DNA from: Acetobacteraceae bacterium
Lineage (GTDB): Bacteria; Pseudomonadota; Alphaproteobacteria; Acetobacterales; Acetobacteraceae
DNA length: 15,602 bases
Assembly: GCA_027340195.1 (NCBI GenBank)
Contig: DAHWNE010000120.1
Coordinates: forward strand, 1-15,602
Reading direction: 5' to 3'
The stretch's first letter is position 1; every line of letters begins with the position of its first letter. Of this stretch, positions 3,393-12,279 are shown piece by piece. Both the position numbers and the translations under genes were made by a program. The notes under the pieces are model-generated. The model was not told where the DNA came from, searched no databases, and saw only the letters and a list, made by a program, of their open reading frames with translations.

Positions 3393-3929
3393 TCAGGGCG
3401 CGCTGCCGCTTGGGGGGAACTGCGGCACCCGGCGGAACTTCGCCGTGTCGTAGCCCTCGGCGGCGAACCGGGCGAGCAGCGCGTGAAGCTCCGCATCACT
3501 CATGCGCCGATGCCGCGACAGGACCCAGCCGTAATCCCGCCCCGGATAGCCCACCAGCGCGGTTCCGTAGTGCGGCCCGACGTAGAGGATAAGGTATGAC
3601 AGATAGAGCGGCCAGAACGGCGACTCCCGCCAGTAGGCGCCGTGCCGGCCCTTCACCACATAGCCGTGCATCACGAAGCGCGTGGGCCGGCCGGAAAATC
3701 CCCCGCTCAGCCCGTGATAGACATCATGCACGTGGCCGTGCGGGAAACTGACGTCGAAATAGCTGGCGACATTGCCGCGCTCGGCGAAATACGGGATCTC
3801 GGCGATGATGTACCAGCGCCCCGCATAGCGCGACAGATCGACGTCGGGGGCCAGGCGCTGGCGGGTGCCGAAACCGGCGCAGCCGGACAGCGCGACCAGC
3901 AGCGCGAGCAGTGCGGGGAAGCGCTTCAT
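3393..3929 (-). CDS. Lipocalin family outer-membrane lipoprotein (Blc-like)
   Basis: This 178-residue protein has a lipoprotein signal peptide with lipobox LSGC (residues 14-17, lipidated Cys17) and a lipocalin barrel. Visible are the first-strand signature YAGRWYIIAEIP (35-46, with the G-x-W motif), a central hydrophobic strand region (about 105-128) and the late YGWVLSR segment (133-139). Bacterial lipocalins of the Blc type bind fatty acids or lysophospholipids at the outer membrane and are stress-induced. It is the last gene of the leftward operon and starts in an ATGA overlap with the DUF6134 gene, so translation is probably coupled. The context suggests it handles modified or damaged acyl chains released during oxidative stress; that role is inferred. 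The frame is open far upstream of the ATG at 3929, but the signal peptide fixes the start. Confidence 0.92.
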   Translation of the reverse strand: MKRFPALLALLVALSGCAGFGTRQRLAPDVDLSRYAGRWYIIAEIPYFAERGNVASYFDVSFPHGHVHDVYHGLSGGFSGRPTRFVMHGYVVKGRHGAYWRESPFWPLYLSYLILYVGPHYGTALVGYPGRDYGWVLSRHRRMSDAELHALLARFAAEGYDTAKFRRVPQFPPSGSAP

Positions 3930-4552
3930 GTCACCCTCTCGTAACGAATCAGCGAGCCGTCGCTGGCGGTGAACAGCAGGCCGGTCCAGACCCCGGCCTC
4001 GGTGTACCAGATGCGCATCCTGGCCGGGCCGGTGATGGCGTAGCAGTTCGCCGCCACCCGCGCCCCGCCGGCCAGCAGCGCCGGATGCGGCCCGAGCGGC
4101 TGCACCCGCGGGTGCAGCAATCGCCCGTTCTCCAGATTGATCCACGGTCCCCGCAGCTCCGCCCGGTTCCAATGGCTCGCGATCATCGCGTCGGCGGGCG
4201 CGCGATAGCGCGGCGTGCGGGTCCCCTCCACCCAGAAGCCGGAGGCATCGCGGGTCGCGCGCATGAACAGCGCGGTACCGTCGTCATCGGTGTGCGAGGC
4301 GGCCGCCACGCAGCGCCCGTCGCGCCAGGTTTCCTCCCCGCGCAGCCGGTAGCGGTAGAGCACCAGCGGGCCGAAGCGGACCGCGATATCGACGGCGATG
4401 ACGACCCGCATCCCGCCCGGCGCGGGCAGGAAGCGCAGCACATGGGTGCCGATGCGGGATCCCTCGCGCAGCAGGCGGAAGTGCAGCAGGTCGGCGCGCG
4501 GCACCCCCGGCGCCACGACCGCGGCGGCCAGCAGCGCGCGGCGGGTCAGCAC
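3926..4552 (-). CDS. DUF6134 family exported protein
   Basis: About 208 residues, read from a GTG at 4552. This start gives a twin-arginine-like leader LTRRALLAAAVVAPGVPRA (residues 2-20), pointing to export across the inner membrane. The mature part begins LLHFRLLREGSRIGTH and carries the segments RFGPLVLYRYRLRGEETW (59-76), SHTDDDGT (86-93) and WNRAELRGPWINLENGRL (128-145), which I recognise as DUF6134. No catalytic motif is apparent, and the shape suggests a beta-rich periplasmic protein. The GTG overlaps the end of the upstream methyltransferase gene by seven bases, so it should be translationally coupled. The downstream lipocalin gene overlaps it by ATGA. Function is unknown. Its place after acyl-chain-modifying enzymes and before a lipocalin suggests envelope lipid handling (inference). 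An in-frame ATG at 4636 would place the start deep inside the methyltransferase gene and was rejected. Confidence 0.8.
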   Translation of the reverse strand: MLTRRALLAAAVVAPGVPRADLLHFRLLREGSRIGTHVLRFLPAPGGMRVVIAVDIAVRFGPLVLYRYRLRGEETWRDGRCVAAASHTDDDGTALFMRATRDASGFWVEGTRTPRYRAPADAMIASHWNRAELRGPWINLENGRLLHPRVQPLGPHPALLAGGARVAANCYAITGPARMRIWYTEAGVWTGLLFTASDGSLIRYERVT

Positions 4553-5745
4553 CCCCGTGGTTCCAAACGCCAGAGGCCGACGTCCACCCGCCCGGCGCGG
4601 AACCCGGCCTCGCAATAGGCGAGGTAGTAGTCCCACAGCCGGCGAAACCGCGGCGGGAACCCCTGGGCGGCGATCGCGGGCCAGGCGTCGTGGAAGCGCG
4701 CCCGCCAGGCAGCCAGGGTGAGCGCGTAGCTGGCGCCGAAATGTTCCCGATGCGTCACCGCGAAGCCATGGCCGGCGGCCAATCGCGCGATCTCCCCCGC
4801 CGAGGGCAGCATCCCACCGGGAAAAATCTGCCGCTGGATGAAGTCGGCGGCGCGGCGATAGGCCGGCAGGGCGTCCTCGGCGATGGTGATGGCCTGGATC
4901 ACCGCTACCCCCCCGGGGGCGAGGCAGCGGCGAAGGGTGGCGAAATAGCTCGGCCAGAAGGCCACGCCCACCGCCTCGATCATCTCGATCGAGACGATGC
5001 GGTCATGGAGTCCCGTGCAGTCGCGATAATCCTGCAACAGGATCCGCGCCTGCTCGCCCAGCCGGGCGCGCGCCCAGTCCAGCTGGGCGGGCGAAAGGGT
5101 GATGCCGGTCACGCGTGCCCCGGCCTCGGCCAGCCGGGCGGCCAGCCCGCCCCAGCCGCAGCCGATCTCGAGCACGCTCCGGCCGGGGGCGAGGTCCAGG
5201 AGCTCCAGCACCCTCGCCTGCTTCTCCGCCTGCGCCTCCTCCAGCGTCATCCCCGGCCGGGTGAAGAGCGCGGAGGAATAGCTCATGCCCGCGTCGAGCC
5301 AGGCGGCATAGAAGGCATTGCCGAGGTCGTAATGGGCGCGGATGTTGCGCCGGCTGCCGCCACGGGTGTTGGCGCGCGCGGCATGGGCGAGGCGGTGAAA
5401 CAGCCGCACCGGAGCCGGCCCGCCCTCGGCGCCCGGGATGCGGGCGAGGTTGCGCGCGGCGAGTTCCAGTAACGCCACCGGGTCCGGGCTGGACCAGTCG
5501 CCATCGATGAAGGCTTCGGCGAAGCCGTTGTCCCCGCCCAGCAGCAGCCGGCCGAGCGCGCGCCATCGGTGCAGCACCCAGACCGCCTCCGGCCCGGCTT
5601 CGGCGCCCTCCCCGCGCTGGCGGGTCCCGTCGGGCAGCACCACGACGAGGCTGCCGGCGGCGAGGCGGGCCAGCAACCGCCCGATCAGCCACCGCCCGGG
5701 ATGCGGCCAGCCGGCGGCCGGGCGGTCGAGCGCGCGTTCGCTCAT
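4546..5745 (-). CDS. CFA-synthase-family SAM-dependent fatty-acyl methyltransferase (operon 1)
   Basis: A 399-residue member of the cyclopropane-fatty-acyl-phospholipid synthase family. An N-terminal domain (about 1-130) has the DGDW segment (81-84). Then come HYDLGNAFYAAWLD (138-151), the SAM-binding loop VLEIGCGWGG (191-200), VSIEMIEAVG (251-260), DFIQRQIFPGGMLPS (301-315) and the C-terminal GFRAGRVDVGLWRL (381-394). By my alignment, the histidine that in E. coli Cfa (LLHTIG segment) helps hold bicarbonate is Gln284 here, in IQAITI. That substitution fits the group that sits beside flavin amine-oxidase-like and DUF1365 genes. The product may therefore be a methyl-branched or methylene fatty acid rather than a cyclopropane (inference). 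The ATG at 5745 overlaps the upstream DUF1365 stop as ATGA. It belongs to the leftward operon driven by the sigma-E-type promoter at 7851-7879. Confidence 0.93.
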   Translation of the reverse strand: MSERALDRPAAGWPHPGRWLIGRLLARLAAGSLVVVLPDGTRQRGEGAEAGPEAVWVLHRWRALGRLLLGGDNGFAEAFIDGDWSSPDPVALLELAARNLARIPGAEGGPAPVRLFHRLAHAARANTRGGSRRNIRAHYDLGNAFYAAWLDAGMSYSSALFTRPGMTLEEAQAEKQARVLELLDLAPGRSVLEIGCGWGGLAARLAEAGARVTGITLSPAQLDWARARLGEQARILLQDYRDCTGLHDRIVSIEMIEAVGVAFWPSYFATLRRCLAPGGVAVIQAITIAEDALPAYRRAADFIQRQIFPGGMLPSAGEIARLAAGHGFAVTHREHFGASYALTLAAWRARFHDAWPAIAAQGFPPRFRRLWDYYLAYCEAGFRAGRVDVGLWRLEPRGC

Positions 5746-6521
5746 GCTAGGTCTCCTTGCGCGACGATGCTGATCGGCTCGGCCGGTGGCGGCGGGCAGC
5801 GGCGGATGCGCAGGCCCTTGCGCCAGAGCTTCGCCGCCTCCCAATGGATCGCCCCCAGCACCTGGGCCGCCAGCAGCGGGTGGCGGGCGAACAGGCCGAG
5901 CAGGGCGCGGTCGGTCAGCTCCCGCCGGCGCTGCGCGAGGCAGGCGGTCAGCACCGGCCCGGCCGCGTCGCGCGCCTCGATCGCGACGCTGAGCCGCGTG
6001 TCCGGCCCAACCAGCCGGAACCGGTACTCGAGCCCCATGTCCATAAAGGGCGAGACGTGAAAGCGCTTTTCGCACGCCTGGCGCAGCGGGCCGGGACCCT
6101 CGGCGACGGGGATCAGGTAGCTGTGGCGCTGGCCGAAGGTGTTGTGGACTTCGTACAGCATCGCCCGCAGCCGGCCGGTGGCATCGTGGCACCAGAACAG
6201 GCTGAGCGGGTTGAAGGCGAAGCCCAGCACCCGCGGCATCGCCAGCAGCAGGATGCGCCCGCCGGCGAGGTCGATGCCGGCGCGCGCGCCCGCCGCCTCG
6301 AGCTGCGCGCGCAACGGGGTGGCGTCGCCGGCGAGGTGGTCACGGGTGGAGAAGCCGAACAGATTGAAGCGCTCGGCGGAGAACCAGCGGAGCCGGGCGG
6401 CGAGCGCCGGAATCTCGTCGAGGTCGAGCAGCAGCGAGACCATCCGCCGCCGCAGCCGATGCCGCACCGGGCGCAGGCGGGTATGGACCACCGATCCCAC
6501 ATAGATCGCCGAGAGGGTCAT
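5742..6521 (-). CDS. DUF1365 family protein
   Basis: A 259-residue protein of DUF1365, a family found very often between a flavin amine-oxidase-like gene and a CFA-like methyltransferase gene, as it is here. It opens with SAIYVGSVVHTRLRP and contains RFNLFGFSTRDH (51-62), the signature FNPLSLFWCHD (103-113), YEVHNTFGQRHSYL (123-136) and KRFHVSPFMDM (152-162). The conserved Asn, His and Cys residues could form an active or metal site, but no reaction is proven to my knowledge. In R. sphaeroides a DUF1365 gene belongs to the sigma-E/ChrR regulon. Both ends overlap neighbours as ATGA, so coupled translation is likely. The ATG at 6521 gives the normal N-terminus of the family. The open frame upstream of it is only antisense-like extension inside the flavoprotein gene. 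Confidence 0.92.
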   Translation of the reverse strand: MTLSAIYVGSVVHTRLRPVRHRLRRRMVSLLLDLDEIPALAARLRWFSAERFNLFGFSTRDHLAGDATPLRAQLEAAGARAGIDLAGGRILLLAMPRVLGFAFNPLSLFWCHDATGRLRAMLYEVHNTFGQRHSYLIPVAEGPGPLRQACEKRFHVSPFMDMGLEYRFRLVGPDTRLSVAIEARDAAGPVLTACLAQRRRELTDRALLGLFARHPLLAAQVLGAIHWEAAKLWRKGLRIRRCPPPPAEPISIVAQGDLA

Positions 6522-7822
6522 GCCGCGATCGCCTCCCGCGGCATCGGCAGGCGCGCGGATTCGCCCTCCACGCGCCAGGGGCGGCGGACCCCGCCGATCG
6601 CCTCGGCCACGGCGAGCCCGGCCTGCAACCCGTCCTCGTGGAAGCCGGCGCCGAACCAGGCGCCACAGAACCAGGTGCGCCGCTGCCCCTGGAGGGCCCA
6701 GAGGTCGCGCTGGGCGCGCAGGGCCGCGGCGTCGAACAGCGGATGGGCGAACACCTCGCGACGGATCACCGTCTCCGGCGCCGGCGCCCGCGTCGGGTTG
6801 AGGGTGACGAAGACGTCGCCCGCCCCCGCCAGCGGTTGCAGCCGGTTCATCCAGTAGGTCACGCAGGGGGCGTCGCCGCCGAGATAGTTCCAGCTCGACC
6901 ATACCGCCCGCCGCCGCGGCATCAGCGCCTTGTCGCGGTGCATCACCGCCAGGTTGCGGCTGGTGCCGATGGCCCCGAGCAGCGCCGCCTCGGGCGCCGA
7001 GGCGTCCTCGAGCAGCGCCCGGGCCTGCGGGGCATGGGTGGCGATCACCACCTGGTCATAGGTCTCCCATTCCGCGCCGTCGGCCGCGATCTCCACCGCC
7101 CCCGGAAGGCGGCGGATCGCCCGCGCCGCGCAGCCGAGCCGGAGGCGGGGCCCGAGCGGGGCCGCGAGCCGATGCACGTATTCGCGGCTGCCGCCCGCCA
7201 CCGTCCGCCATTGCGGCCGATCGCGCAGCTTCAGCAGCCCGTGATTGGCGCAGAAGCGGATGAAGGCCAGCGCCGGGTAGTCGGCGATGCGCGCGGCCGG
7301 AGCGGACCAGATCGCGGCGGCCATCGGCAGCAGGTGATCGCGCACGAAGGCCGCGCCGTAGCCCCGCCGGGCGAGCCAAGCGCCGAGCGGGACCTCCGGG
7401 TCGAGCGTGCGCGCGGCGGCCTCCGCCTCGCGGTAGAAGCGGGCGATATCGCGCAGCATCGACCAGAAGCGCGGGCGGATCAGGTTGCGGGTCTGGCCGA
7501 ACAGGCCGGCCAGGTCGGTGCCCGCGTATTCGAGCGCCCCGCCCTCCAGCGAGACCGCGAAGGACATGTCGGAGGGCACGGAACGAACCGCGAGGTGATC
7601 GAACAGCGCCACCAGGTTCGGATAGGCGGGTGGATTATAGACGATGAACCCCATGTCCACCGGCTCGGTGCCGCCTGCGGACGGGACATCGACGGTCAGG
7701 CTGTGCCCGCCGGGGCGCGGCGCGGCCTCGTAAACGGTGACGTCATGCGCCCCGGCCAGCAGCCAGGCCGAGGCCAGCCCGGCGATTCCCGCCCCCACCA
7801 CCGCGATCCGCTGCCGCCGCAT
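6518..7822 (-). CDS. NAD(P)/FAD-dependent amine-oxidase-like flavoprotein
   Basis: A 434-residue flavoprotein of the NAD(P)-binding/amine oxidase fold. The dinucleotide-binding motif is VVGAGIAGLASAW (8-20), with the ribose-binding acidic residue in VYEAAPRPGGHS (30-41). It also has DMGFIVYN (56-63) and a C-terminal FCGAWFGAGFHEDG segment. This type is regularly paired with DUF1365 and CFA-like enzymes and presumably oxidises, reduces or desaturates the acyl chain. The exact reaction is not known from sequence. The start was set at the ATG at 7822, which has GAGG five bases upstream. A GTG at 7849 in frame would lie upstream of the expected transcription start of the sigma-E promoter (near 7844), which argues against it. 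It is the first gene of the leftward operon and overlaps DUF1365 by ATGA. Confidence 0.92.
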   Translation of the reverse strand: MRRQRIAVVGAGIAGLASAWLLAGAHDVTVYEAAPRPGGHSLTVDVPSAGGTEPVDMGFIVYNPPAYPNLVALFDHLAVRSVPSDMSFAVSLEGGALEYAGTDLAGLFGQTRNLIRPRFWSMLRDIARFYREAEAAARTLDPEVPLGAWLARRGYGAAFVRDHLLPMAAAIWSAPAARIADYPALAFIRFCANHGLLKLRDRPQWRTVAGGSREYVHRLAAPLGPRLRLGCAARAIRRLPGAVEIAADGAEWETYDQVVIATHAPQARALLEDASAPEAALLGAIGTSRNLAVMHRDKALMPRRRAVWSSWNYLGGDAPCVTYWMNRLQPLAGAGDVFVTLNPTRAPAPETVIRREVFAHPLFDAAALRAQRDLWALQGQRRTWFCGAWFGAGFHEDGLQAGLAVAEAIGGVRRPWRVEGESARLPMPREAIAA

Positions 7823-7850
7823 CCGAGCCTCGTTCGTGCTACCTGTCACC

Positions 7851-7879
7851 CCTTACGCAGCCGGCGGCGGACCGGATCA
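7851..7879 (-). promoter_or_regulatory. Sigma-E (RpoE)-type promoter of the leftward operon
   Basis: Read on the minus strand, TGATCC (7879-7874) is followed after exactly 18 bases by TAAGG (7855-7851). R. sphaeroides sigma-E promoters have a TGATCC -35 and a TAAGA-like -10 with similar spacing. Transcription would start near 7844, leaving a leader of about 22 bases before the ATG at 7822. The mirrored plus-strand promoter has the same spacing, which makes chance unlikely. Confidence 0.85.
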
Positions 7880-7897
7880 CCGGCGCGGGAGTGATCC
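7874..7897. repeat. Inverted repeat formed by the two -35 boxes
   Basis: GGATCAC (7874-7880) and GTGATCC (7891-7897) are perfect inverted copies with a 10-base centre. They contain the -35 elements of the two divergent promoters. It may be no more than the by-product of two facing promoters, or also a site for another protein. Confidence 0.85.
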
Positions 7898-7920
7898 GAT
7901 CCGGCGGATGCGGCGTAGAG
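7892..7920 (+). promoter_or_regulatory. Sigma-E (RpoE)-type promoter of rpoE-chrR and downstream genes
   Basis: TGATCC (7892-7897) is followed after exactly 18 bases by TAGAG (7916-7920). This fits autoregulation of rpoE by its own product, as known for R. sphaeroides. The predicted transcription start is at about 7926-7928. That leaves a leader of about 68 bases before the preferred rpoE start at 7995, or almost no leader before an in-frame ATG at 7926. Confidence 0.83.
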
Positions 7921-7994
7921 GGGGCATGTATGTGTCGCGCCAGCCCTGGATGGTCTGGGCCGGGCCTGCCCGACGCCACGGGGAGCCCTGCCCG

Positions 7995-8543
7995 ATGACC
8001 GACGCTCCGGACGCCACCCCCGCCGCCCTGATCGCGGCGGTGGCGCGCGGCGACCGCGCGGCCTTCGCCGTGCTGTTCGGCCGGTTCGCTCCGCGCATCA
8101 AAGCGTTGCTGATGCGCCGGGGTACCCAGGCCGCCGAGGCCGAGGAGCTGGCGCAGGAGGCGATGCTGGCGATCTGGCGCAAGGCCGCGCAGTTCGACCC
8201 TTCCCGCGCCACCGCCGCCGCCTGGATCTTCGCCATCGCCCGCAATCTGTCGATCGACGCGCATCGCCGCGCATCGCCGGCGCCGGCGGACGATCCGGGC
8301 CTCGCGCCCGACCCGCCGGCGACCGCTGACGCGCTGCTGGACGAATCGGAGCGCGCGGCGCGGGTGCGCGCGGTGATCGCCACCCTGCCCGCCGAGCAGG
8401 CCGAGGCGCTGCGCCTCGCCTTCTTCGACGACCGCTCGCACGCCGATATCGAGTCCCTGCTCGGCATCCCGCTGGGCACGGTCAAATCCCGCCTGCGGCT
8501 GGCGATGGGGCGGCTGCGGGCGGCGCTGGGAGATCTGGCATGA
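7995..8543 (+). CDS. rpoE: ECF (group IV) sigma factor RpoE, ChrR-partnered
   Basis: A 182-residue ECF sigma factor. Region 2 spans about residues 21-90 (AFAVLFGRFAPRIKALLMRRG, then the AAAWIFAIARNLSIDAHRR -10-recognition helix). Region 4 spans about 122-178, with LPAEQAEALRLAFFDDRSHADI and the -35-binding IPLGTVKSRLRLAMGRLR. It closely resembles R. sphaeroides RpoE, including the K-A-x-L-M patch (36-40) that aligns with residues K38 and M42, which I recall as touching ChrR there. The ATG at 7995 has GGGGAG nine bases upstream and matches the family N-terminus (MTD). An in-frame ATG at 7926 would add 23 unusual residues. The gene overlaps chrR by ATGA and should control both divergent promoters at 7851-7920. 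The expected trigger is singlet oxygen or organic peroxide (family knowledge). Confidence 0.95.
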   Translation: MTDAPDATPAALIAAVARGDRAAFAVLFGRFAPRIKALLMRRGTQAAEAEELAQEAMLAIWRKAAQFDPSRATAAAWIFAIARNLSIDAHRRASPAPADDPGLAPDPPATADALLDESERAARVRAVIATLPAEQAEALRLAFFDDRSHADIESLLGIPLGTVKSRLRLAMGRLRAALGDLA

Positions 8544-9148
8544 TCCGCCACCATCCCGCCGATACCACCCTGCTCGCCTGCGCCGCCGGCAGGATGCCCC
8601 CTGCCCATGCGCGGGTGATCGGCGTCCACGCGGCGCTGTGCCCGCACTGCGCGGCGGGGCTCGCGGCGGCGGAAGCGGCCGGCGGAGCGCTGTTGGAGGC
8701 GCTAGCGCCGGTGGCGCTGGCGCCGGACGCGCTGGCGCGCACGCTGGCCCGGCTGGACGCCGCGGCGCCGGAACCCGCGCCCCCGGGGTTCGACCTTGCC
8801 GCGCTCGCCTCCGGGCGCTGGCGGCGTGTCGCCCCCGGCATCGCCATCATGCCCCTGATGGCGCGCGATGCGACCGACAGCCGGCTCGATCTGATCCGGG
8901 TCGCCCCGGGCCGCGCCCTGCTCGCGCATGGCCATTCCGGGGCCGAGACCACCTGCGTGCTGACCGGCGCCTTCACCGACGGCGCCGACAGCTACGGCGC
9001 CGGGGATTGCGTCGAAACCGATCCGGCGGTGGCGCATCAGCCGCGCGCCCTGCCGGGGGAGGATTGCATCTGCCTGATCGCGGTCACCCATCACCTGCGC
9101 CCGCGCTCCTGGCTTGGGCGGGTGGTGCGTCCATTGCTGGGGATGTGA
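8540..9148 (+). CDS. chrR: Zinc-binding anti-sigma factor ChrR (ASD plus cupin domain)
   Basis: A 202-residue ChrR. The N-terminal anti-sigma domain has the zinc ligands His5, His30, Cys34 and Cys37 (pattern HxxxCxxC). The C-terminal cupin domain (about 95-190) keeps its metal-site pattern, His130, His132, Glu136 and His166, in LAHGHSGAE and VAHQP. In R. sphaeroides the first domain alone holds sigma-E inactive, and the cupin domain is needed for release on singlet oxygen. Both sets of ligands are intact, so a working sensor is expected. It is a cytoplasmic protein. Its ATGA overlap with rpoE suits equal production of the pair. The next gene starts two bases after its stop, tying effector genes directly to the regulator transcript. 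Confidence 0.95.
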   Translation: MIRHHPADTTLLACAAGRMPPAHARVIGVHAALCPHCAAGLAAAEAAGGALLEALAPVALAPDALARTLARLDAAAPEPAPPGFDLAALASGRWRRVAPGIAIMPLMARDATDSRLDLIRVAPGRALLAHGHSGAETTCVLTGAFTDGADSYGAGDCVETDPAVAHQPRALPGEDCICLIAVTHHLRPRSWLGRVVRPLLGM

Positions 9149-10742: not shown

Positions 10743-11764
10743 GCCTGGTTGCCGCCGTCACCGGCGCCGCCGAGCGCCTGCCCCTGCCCGACGCCCTGAC
10801 CCGGGCCGGGATCGCGCTGCTGGTGAACCGCACCGGCCGGGCGCTGGACCGCGCGCCGCCCGAGGCGGAGCGCGACTTCGCGCTCTCGATGTGGGCCTGG
10901 CCGATCGCCCGCTCCCCGGAGGCGGCCAACGCCCAGCATTACGAACTGCCGGCGGCGTTCTTCGGCCAGGTGCTGGGGGCGCGGCGCAAATACTCCTGCT
11001 GCCTCTATGCCGACCCGGCGGATACGCTGGACGTCGCCGAGGAGCGCGCGCTGGAGGTCACCGCCGCCCATGCGGGACTGGCGGATGGGCAGCGGATCCT
11101 GGAGCTCGGCTGCGGCTGGGGGTCGCTCAGCCTGTGGATGGCCGAGGCGTTTCCACGCGCCGCCATCACCGCGGTCTCCAACGCCGCCGCCCAGCGGCGC
11201 TTCATCGAGGCCGAGGCGCGCCGGCGCGGCATCACCAATCTGCGGGTGCTGACCGCGGACATGAACGAGTTCGAGCCCGACGGGCGCTTCGATCGCGTGG
11301 TCTCGGTCGAGATGTGGGAGCACATGAGCAACTGGCACGCGCTGCTGGCGCGCGTGCACGGCTGGCTGGAGCCGGGCGGGCGGCTGTTCCTGCACGTCTT
11401 CAGCCACCGCAGCGCCCCCTATGCCTTCGACCCCGAGGACGCGGCGGACTGGATCGCCCGGCACTTCTTCACCGGCGGCATCATGCCGAGCCACGGGCTG
11501 ATCCGCGAGCTCGACCAGCATTTCACCCTGGCCGCCGACTGGCGCTGGTCCGGCACCCATTACCAGCGCACCGCGCGCGACTGGCTGGCCCGCTTCGACG
11601 CCAATCAGCCGGCGATCGCGCCGATCCTGGCCGAGGTCTATGGCGCGGATGCGGCGCTGTGGCGGCGGCGCTGGCGGCTGTTCTTCCTGGCCACCGCCGG
11701 GCTGTTCGGCGCGCGTGACGGCAACGACTGGGGGGTGAGCCACTACCTGCTGGCGCCGCGATGA
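10739..11764 (+). CDS. CFA-synthase-family SAM-dependent methyltransferase (operon 2, CfaA-like)
   Basis: A 341-residue SAM-dependent methyltransferase of the CFA-synthase/coclaurine N-methyltransferase group. It shows HYELPAAFFGQVLG (67-80), KYSCCLY (84-90), the SAM loop LELGCGWGSL (121-130), VSVEMWEHMSNW (188-199) and DWIARHFFTGGIMPSH (237-252). It is shorter than the other methyltransferase in the window (399 residues) and differs in its N-terminal domain and C-terminus, so the two are not recent duplicates. It resembles the CfaA-type protein of the R. sphaeroides sigma-E regulon. The substrate is probably an unsaturated phospholipid acyl chain, though members of this subgroup may act on other molecules. 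It is ATGA-coupled to DUF1295 upstream and to the membrane protein downstream. Confidence 0.92.
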   Translation: MSLVAAVTGAAERLPLPDALTRAGIALLVNRTGRALDRAPPEAERDFALSMWAWPIARSPEAANAQHYELPAAFFGQVLGARRKYSCCLYADPADTLDVAEERALEVTAAHAGLADGQRILELGCGWGSLSLWMAEAFPRAAITAVSNAAAQRRFIEAEARRRGITNLRVLTADMNEFEPDGRFDRVVSVEMWEHMSNWHALLARVHGWLEPGGRLFLHVFSHRSAPYAFDPEDAADWIARHFFTGGIMPSHGLIRELDQHFTLAADWRWSGTHYQRTARDWLARFDANQPAIAPILAEVYGADAALWRRRWRLFFLATAGLFGARDGNDWGVSHYLLAPR

Positions 11765-12279
11765 GGCGGAGCGCGGCCACCCCCGAGGCCACCGCGTGTT
11801 TTCTCGCCCTGGTCCTGGGGGCGAACGGGCCGATCTACCCGCTCTACGTGATCGCGGTGGTCGGGTGGGCGAGCGGACATTGGGCGTTCCTGACCATGGG
11901 GGCGATGCCGCTGTTCCTGGCGATCCCGGCGCTGGCCCGGCGGGTGCCGGGCATGGCGGGCGGTGCGTTGTGGCTGGTGGGCACGCTCAATACGCTGTGG
12001 TGCATGAAGCTGCTGGGGCCGGCGAGCCTGGTGGGCGCGTTCCTGCTGCCCTGCGCCGGGCTGGCCGCGCTGCTGCCGGCGGGGTGGGCGCGGCTGGCCG
12101 GGGCCGGGCTGCCGCTGCTGGGGTTGCTGGTGCCGCATGCGTGGTTCGGCGCGGCGATCCTGCGGCTGACCGCGGGGCAGGCGGCGCGGCTGGCGAGCCT
12201 CAACCTCTTCAGCGCCGGCTGCCTGACCGGGCTGATCGGGCTGCGGCTGGGGAGGCTGATCGCGCCGGAGGGGCCGTAA
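11761..12279 (+). CDS. Small multi-pass membrane protein of unknown function
   Basis: A 172-residue protein that I do not recognise. It is almost entirely hydrophobic, with about five helices at roughly residues 10-32, 40-60, 66-85, 88-125 (possibly two close helices) and 140-165. Candidate conserved polar spots are NGPIYP (21-26), HWAF (40-43) and NTLWCMK (76-82). There is no signal peptide or enzyme motif. Its ATG forms an ATGA overlap with the upstream methyltransferase gene, so it is almost certainly the last gene of the rpoE operon. It could be a subunit or membrane anchor for the DUF1295 or methyltransferase enzymes (inference). Confidence 0.82.
   Translation: MRRSAATPEATACFLALVLGANGPIYPLYVIAVVGWASGHWAFLTMGAMPLFLAIPALARRVPGMAGGALWLVGTLNTLWCMKLLGPASLVGAFLLPCAGLAALLPAGWARLAGAGLPLLGLLVPHAWFGAAILRLTAGQAARLASLNLFSAGCLTGLIGLRLGRLIAPEGP

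Follow-up and report, generated by a model that had tools for sequence, protein, structure and literature searches.

Gene content of the divergent locus

The window, a 15,602-nucleotide stretch of DNA from an Acetobacteraceae bacterium (contig DAHWNE010000120.1), carries two divergently oriented operons. On the plus strand, rpoE encodes an ECF11-type sigma factor; its short form occupies positions 7995..8543 and starts at ATG 7995, upstream of which GGGGAG is found at 7980-7985. The protein matches only Pfam Sigma70_r2 and Sigma70_r4/r4_2, i.e., it consists of the σ2 and σ4 domains alone, and its best solved chain is that of R. sphaeroides RpoE (2q1z). It is followed by chrR (8540..9148, plus strand), which encodes an anti-sigma factor of 202 residues with a C-terminal Cupin_7 domain (PF12973) spanning residues 90-182. 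The motif HAALCPHC, read in the ChrR translation, is presumably the zinc-site-like motif of the anti-sigma factor. The two-domain sigma factor, the adjoining cupin anti-sigma factor, and a TGATCC/CGTA promoter before rpoE are all as expected of an ECF11 RpoE-ChrR system. Downstream of chrR, the plus strand encodes an alpha/beta hydrolase, a DUF1295 protein, and a CMAS-family protein, and the frame at 11761-12276 beyond the last of these has no Pfam match.

The opposite operon, on the minus strand, begins with a gene for a ufaD-like FAD-dependent oxidase (6518..7822; PF01593), which corresponds in gene order to RSP_1091 of R. sphaeroides. Its likely start is ATG 7822, with a leader of about 22 nt that contains GAGG. 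Next come a ufaO-like gene for a DUF1365 protein (5742..6527; PF07103), for which RSP_1090, or UfaO, is the reference, and a gene for a CMAS-family methyltransferase (4546..5640; PF02353), both with approximate starts, and then a gene for a DUF6134 protein. Beside this operon, a frame at 3393-4172 on the minus strand encodes a product that by eye resembles a lipocalin-type lipoprotein. The locus thus shows the divergent rpoE/ufaD core-regulon arrangement, in which a ufaD-ufaO-like operon lies opposite rpoE with σE motifs on both sides.

The same gene families, in the same orientation, are found in R. sphaeroides (RSP_1091-1087 and rpoE-chrR), where the divergent operons are reported to carry an RpoE-dependent promoter each and where singlet oxygen (1O2)-induced proteolysis of ChrR is reported to need RSP_1091 and RSP_1090 (PMC3818230). 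These two proteins are described as UfaD and UfaO, which take part in the synthesis of furan fatty acids (PMC7380195), and the RpoE core regulon, as reported, includes rpoE-chrR and the furan fatty acid genes (PMC6852236). Since the divergent layout has been published for R. sphaeroides, it is already known. On the spacing of the divergent σE pair, the accessible portions of the open-licence literature offer nothing, which is weak evidence of absence.

Two mirrored promoters between the operons

Direct reading of the sequence places two promoters back to back between the operons. The minus-strand promoter, which would serve the ufaD-like operon, has its -35 element TGATCC at 7874..7879 (GGATCA on the plus strand) and its -10 element TAAGG at 7851..7855, with CGTA at 7857-7854. 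The rpoE promoter, on the plus strand, has TGATCC at 7892..7897 and TAGAG at 7916..7920, with CGTA at 7914-7917. Thus, as originally predicted, TGATCC-N18-TAAGG on the minus strand and TGATCC-N18-TAGAG on the plus strand stand at 7851-7920, both spacers measure 18 bases, and the two -35 boxes form a perfect GGATCAC-N10-GTGATCC inverted repeat, the only one in the window. The distance given between the -35 boxes was also right, but "touching" was loose wording, because 12 bp (7880..7891) lie between them. Transcription of the minus operon is predicted to start at 7844-7845, at an offset of 34-35 from the -35 box; this placement is based on the enrichment of A at the minus-operon start offset in relatives.

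In the assembly, which comprises 2.24 Mb and is 66% complete, TGATCC-N16-CGTA has exactly two matches, both of which belong to this pair, and the reversed-pattern control has 0. The inverted repeat occurs at a single place in the same assembly, and for the window it was present in 0 of 200 shuffles. Even with E values of up to 1 allowed, Rfam yielded no structured RNA in 7700-8200, and no sigma-70-like promoter or terminator was detected within 7750-8100. The proposal that divergent σE promoters serve a regulator operon and an effector operon is backed by the motif, the gene content, and the R. sphaeroides precedent. Both promoters appear to be ECF11-type σE promoters, and RpoE is probably the factor that uses them in this organism.

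Conservation of the promoter pair among relatives

For comparison, rpoE loci were collected from four sources: the best 30 places in 100 relatives, 397 genomes from the window's family, 385 genomes from the class, and a named-genome set made up of the best 80 of 301 matches to the R. sphaeroides protein, mostly with Rhodobacterales titles. The locus set omits G311:C56 from the family search and, at contig ends, G641:C130 and G700:C300 from the class search. Among the 291 loci examined, a ufaD-like gene was divergent from rpoE in 173, and in the other 118 it was absent or outside the sequence examined. The set is unbalanced in that 79 of the 173 divergent loci come from the named-genome set. 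Both promoters were within the score limit in 162 of the divergent loci, and a recognizable pair was missing in 11. A protein tree was built on 105 rows, namely, every fourth named-genome locus and all others; rows L003 and L035 are identical in it.

At the plus promoter, the spacer was 18 in 162 of 162 loci with the pair, and at the minus promoter it was 18 in 156, 17 in 5, and 19 in 1. Because the promoter scoring favors a spacer of 18, we also made a separate, unbiased tally of hexamers. The intergenic regions of the 173 divergent loci (48,822 bases, window included) contain 332 exact TGATCC hexamers on the two strands, compared with 31 expected from Markov resampling. CGTA follows at spacer 18 after 267 of the 332, where 0.05 would be expected. 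Spacer 17 accounts for 5, and no other spacing between 10 and 26 accounts for more than 3. The consensus from the divergent loci is GTGATCC(A/G)-N15-CGTA. A G precedes TGATCC in 78% of plus promoters and 64% of minus promoters, and G-TGATCC is found on both sides in 68 of the 136 loci having two exact hexamers. Five loci of the window's family (L007, L010, L041, L045, and L047) have CGTC or CGTT for CGTA at -10 boxes; their gaps between the -35 boxes are 13-15 bp.

Equal spacers and inverted -35 boxes are what results when one sigma factor reads one element on both strands. The symmetry of the pair therefore adds little, because a spacer of 18 is near-universal for such promoters and the seventh paired base of the repeat is part of the -35 consensus. 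Judged by these comparisons of sequence, the promoter pair is real, conserved, and ordinary.

Distance between the -35 boxes

Among the 162 paired loci, the gap between the -35 boxes was never shorter than 4 bp and reached more than 100 bp; two outliers (264 and 917) are possibly mispaired promoters. The gap did not exceed 15 bp in 48 of the 162, measured 12-14 bp in 34, and was longer than 15 bp in 114. Gaps of 12-14 bp were found in 29 of 53 loci of the window's family; in a few other families they were found in L020, L030, L223, and L290 and, at 14 bp, in L122 of the named-genome set. In that set (the best 80 of 301 matches), most gaps lay within 24-142, and values of 65 and around 140 formed clusters. 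The 12 bp of the window compare with 9, 10, and 8 bp in its three nearest rows in the 105-row protein tree, and with 31 bp in L093 (Cereibacter johrii) and 32 bp in L094, near relatives that stand in for R. sphaeroides, which is itself outside the locus set. The exact -35/-35 distance is not maintained.

The original prediction read the mirrored geometry as a switch or rate-sharing device for competing holoenzymes, to be given up if relatives that keep the gene order had lost the mirrored spacing. Relatives with the same gene order, the three nearest rows among them, have lost the -35/-35 distance, which is the outcome named in advance as counting against the prediction. An overlapping-promoter switch should conserve its geometry wherever the gene order is conserved, and here the geometry varies under a conserved gene order; a geometry-locked or conserved switch thus appears not to be supported by the loci compared. 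The overlapping divergent promoters of pLS20 are described as a switch with DNA looping (PMC4207663). The window resembles pLS20 in its overlapping divergent promoters, whereas the looping switch is described for pLS20.

We compared the gap with its flanks in 39 pairs of near neighbors. Of these, 11 had the same gap, 14 differed in it by no more than 3, and 14 showed a larger difference. The median change was 2 bases for the gap, 3 for the rpoE side, and 1 for the ufaD side, so that the gap is not clearly more constrained than the leaders. Helical phasing of the two boxes was also considered and was not upheld. A first Rayleigh test gave a p of about 5e-6, and p stayed at about 0.01 or less under thinning of relatives when the 12-14 bp peak was kept. 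Once this peak was omitted, p rose to 0.06 at the loosest thinning and to 0.29-0.55 at stricter thinning. When the test was confined to gaps above 15 bp, the loosest thinning gave 0.017, and stricter thinning gave 0.08-0.47. Outside the 12-14 bp peak, then, the Rayleigh test on thinned relatives found no robust helical phasing of the -35 boxes, and because the signal fades without the peak, the apparent periodicity is mainly the peak itself.

The rows with gaps of 12-14 bp do not share one gap sequence: apart from the bases adjoining the boxes, it differs among genera. A gap of 12-14 bp requires at least 15 changes on the 105-row tree, in a count made with no shuffle control. The preference for 12-14 bp in the window's family may reflect a geometry that is favored but dispensable, or descent. 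Independent placement fails to explain it, and some coupling between the two promoters may therefore exist.

One rival reading is competition, in which two holoenzymes cannot co-occupy the site and the operons share initiation events at high σE. Steric exclusion is plausible at the gap of 12 bp found here, and both the frequency of gaps of up to 15 bp, with their concentration at 12-14 bp, and the divergence of the short-gap sequences among genera would suit it. It sits poorly, however, with the majority of loci whose gap exceeds 15 bp, with the different gaps in the nearest rows, and with the lack of a robust phase rule outside the peak. Moreover, exclusion matters only near saturation: for equal competitors on overlapping sites, simple arithmetic, a/(1+2a) versus a/(1+a), gives a loss of about 8% at a binding weight a of 0.1 and of half at saturation. 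Mutual exclusion alone would yield no bistability, and since both operons belong to the same positive loop in R. sphaeroides, antagonism between them would be of no obvious help. We consider competition unlikely.

The opposite effect is predicted by the supercoiling model, in which the DNA between two promoters becomes negatively supercoiled as they are transcribed away from each other. These supercoils could help closely spaced promoters to fire together, and such mutual stimulation would agree with the short gaps common in the window's family and with co-induction in a positive loop; conservation of the gap is nonetheless weak outside that family, and we regard this reading as quite improbable. 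Finally, the notion that the GTGATCC inverted repeat, a perfect 7-bp one, serves a dimeric regulator as its operator and does not consist of two -35 boxes can be dismissed, as the spacing of its arms varies across the whole range of gaps and yet CGTA keeps its place at spacer 18 from TGATCC.

A start codon at the predicted rpoE transcription start

With the offset counted from the first T of TGATCC, transcription is expected to start at offset 34-36. In the window, an ATG is located at this predicted rpoE start (7926..7928, plus strand), in frame and open into RpoE (MYVSRQPWMVWAGPARRHGEPCP-MTDAPD...). Translation from it would produce a predicted N-terminal extension of 23 codons (7926..7994, plus strand), which ends before Met 7995.

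Across 240 scored rpoE promoters, an in-frame, stop-free ATG was present at offset 34-36 in 160, comprising 127 of 162 divergent loci with the promoter pair and 33 of 78 nondivergent loci with a plus promoter; 11 divergent loci without the pair and 40 nondivergent loci without a plus match were left unscored. The remaining scored loci had an in-frame GTG (17), an ATG that was out of frame or interrupted (9), or none of these (54). At other 3-nt intervals from offset 25 to 90, an in-frame open ATG was found in 0-23 of the 240, except for the adjacent interval 37-39, where it was found in 56, a count to which 'MM' starts contribute their second ATG. ATGs that were out of frame reached 56 of 240 at other intervals versus 9 at offset 34-36. 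On the ufaD side, an in-frame ATG at offset 34 was seen in 5 of 162 loci. For rpoE, offset 34 alone accounted for an ATG in 20 of 53 loci from the window's family, in 10 of 34 from elsewhere in the class, and in 54 of 75 loci of the named-genome set. The R. sphaeroides relatives L093-L095 differ from the window in that their predicted rpoE start site lacks a start codon.

The extension itself varies most at third positions in codons 2-9 (11 and 40 distinct sequences; the pairs are not independent). For equal-length whole extensions, pN/pS was 0.65 in frame, whereas the two shifted frames gave 1.03 and 0.96; for the first 100 codons of RpoE proper it was 0.16 (93 nonindependent pairs from 52 loci). 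These ratios indicate a weak constraint on the extension, in the right frame. By a crude test, a later start with a Shine-Dalgarno-like sequence was present in 61 of the 160 extended loci.

Four of 350 matching plasmid records were inspected for the annotated rpoE start. The Rhizobium tropici record places the rpoE start exactly at the start-site ATG, and its -35 box has one mismatch; in Qingshengfaniella alkalisoli, the annotated start is a TTG located 99 nt downstream of an in-frame start-site ATG. Skermanella mucosa gave only a weak promoter match, downstream of the annotated rpoE start, and no promoter was found upstream of rpoE in the Azospirillum B510 plasmid record. Annotated rpoE starts disagree (L295 2067 and L297 1875), with a TTG 99 nt downstream versus the start-site ATG itself. 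We predict from the position of the ATG that the rpoE mRNA is leaderless and that σE is N-terminally extended, here by 23 residues.

Leaderless messages of ECF sigma genes have precedents: p1 of M. tuberculosis sigE is reported to give a leaderless mRNA (PMC4921905), and in B. japonicum ecfF the mapped start, 6 bp after the -10 box, is reported to overlap the annotated upstream ATG, an overlap that made the authors pick a later start codon (PMC3420878). These two genes, however, belong to ECF groups other than the ECF11 group of the window. In S. meliloti, 171 leaderless start sites are reported, all of them AUG (PMC3616915). The Streptomyces SigR/SigR' system with RsrA offers a parallel for the extension: it too joins a stress sigma factor to a redox-sensitive zinc anti-sigma factor, and an autoregulated upstream promoter is described as giving rise to an isoform that begins at an upstream ATG and is thereby extended at its N terminus (PMC4921905, PMC5472188). 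SigR' is reported to be unstable, with an extension given as 55 residues (PMC4921905) or 58 residues (PMC5472188), whereas the extension of the window's RpoE is 23 residues long and predicted. A SigR'-like system would make the extended and the short form from different promoters; within positions 7750-8100 of the window, no sigma-70-like second promoter was found. The accessible portions of the open-licence literature contain nothing that treats leaderless messages, ChrR, and sigma factors together, which is weak evidence of absence.

Interpretation and implications

Altogether, we think it very likely that the locus comprises two ordinary ECF11 RpoE promoters that drive divergent core-regulon operons within one positive-feedback loop; on the plus side, the message may also be leaderless and RpoE extended. 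The observations are the motifs and their conservation, the families of the genes, the variation of the gap, and the ATG in frame with rpoE. From them we infer that the promoters depend on σE in this organism, where the transcripts start, that the extension is translated, and that the loop feeds back. Under this explanation, stress would free RpoE from ChrR, and the RpoE holoenzyme would transcribe the ufaD-ufaO-like furan-fatty-acid operon leftward and rpoE-chrR itself rightward. The ufaD-ufaO-like products would in turn promote ChrR turnover, as in R. sphaeroides, and the two arms would form a single positive-feedback loop, co-induced and not switched against each other. The plus promoter seems to be placed such that the mRNA starts at the in-frame ATG, so that the message would lack a leader and RpoE would carry the extension. 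Conserved as they are, and probably answering to one regulator, the mirrored promoters are not geometry-locked; therefore, no new switch mechanism is needed.

Extending the start-codon result beyond this locus, we tentatively raise the possibility, which we rate as doubtful at present, that most alphaproteobacteria with the divergent arrangement make a leaderless, σE-driven rpoE mRNA and an extended, stress-specific RpoE' with altered stability or altered affinity for ChrR. If this were true, RpoE' and Streptomyces SigR' would be convergent feedback devices, the former partly hidden by start-codon annotation, and some annotated ECF11 starts, as well as the constructs made from them, would lack the natural N terminus. 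If leaderless translation is real, the start-codon result would matter more than the promoter geometry, and the singlet-oxygen response would gain an unstudied layer of control.
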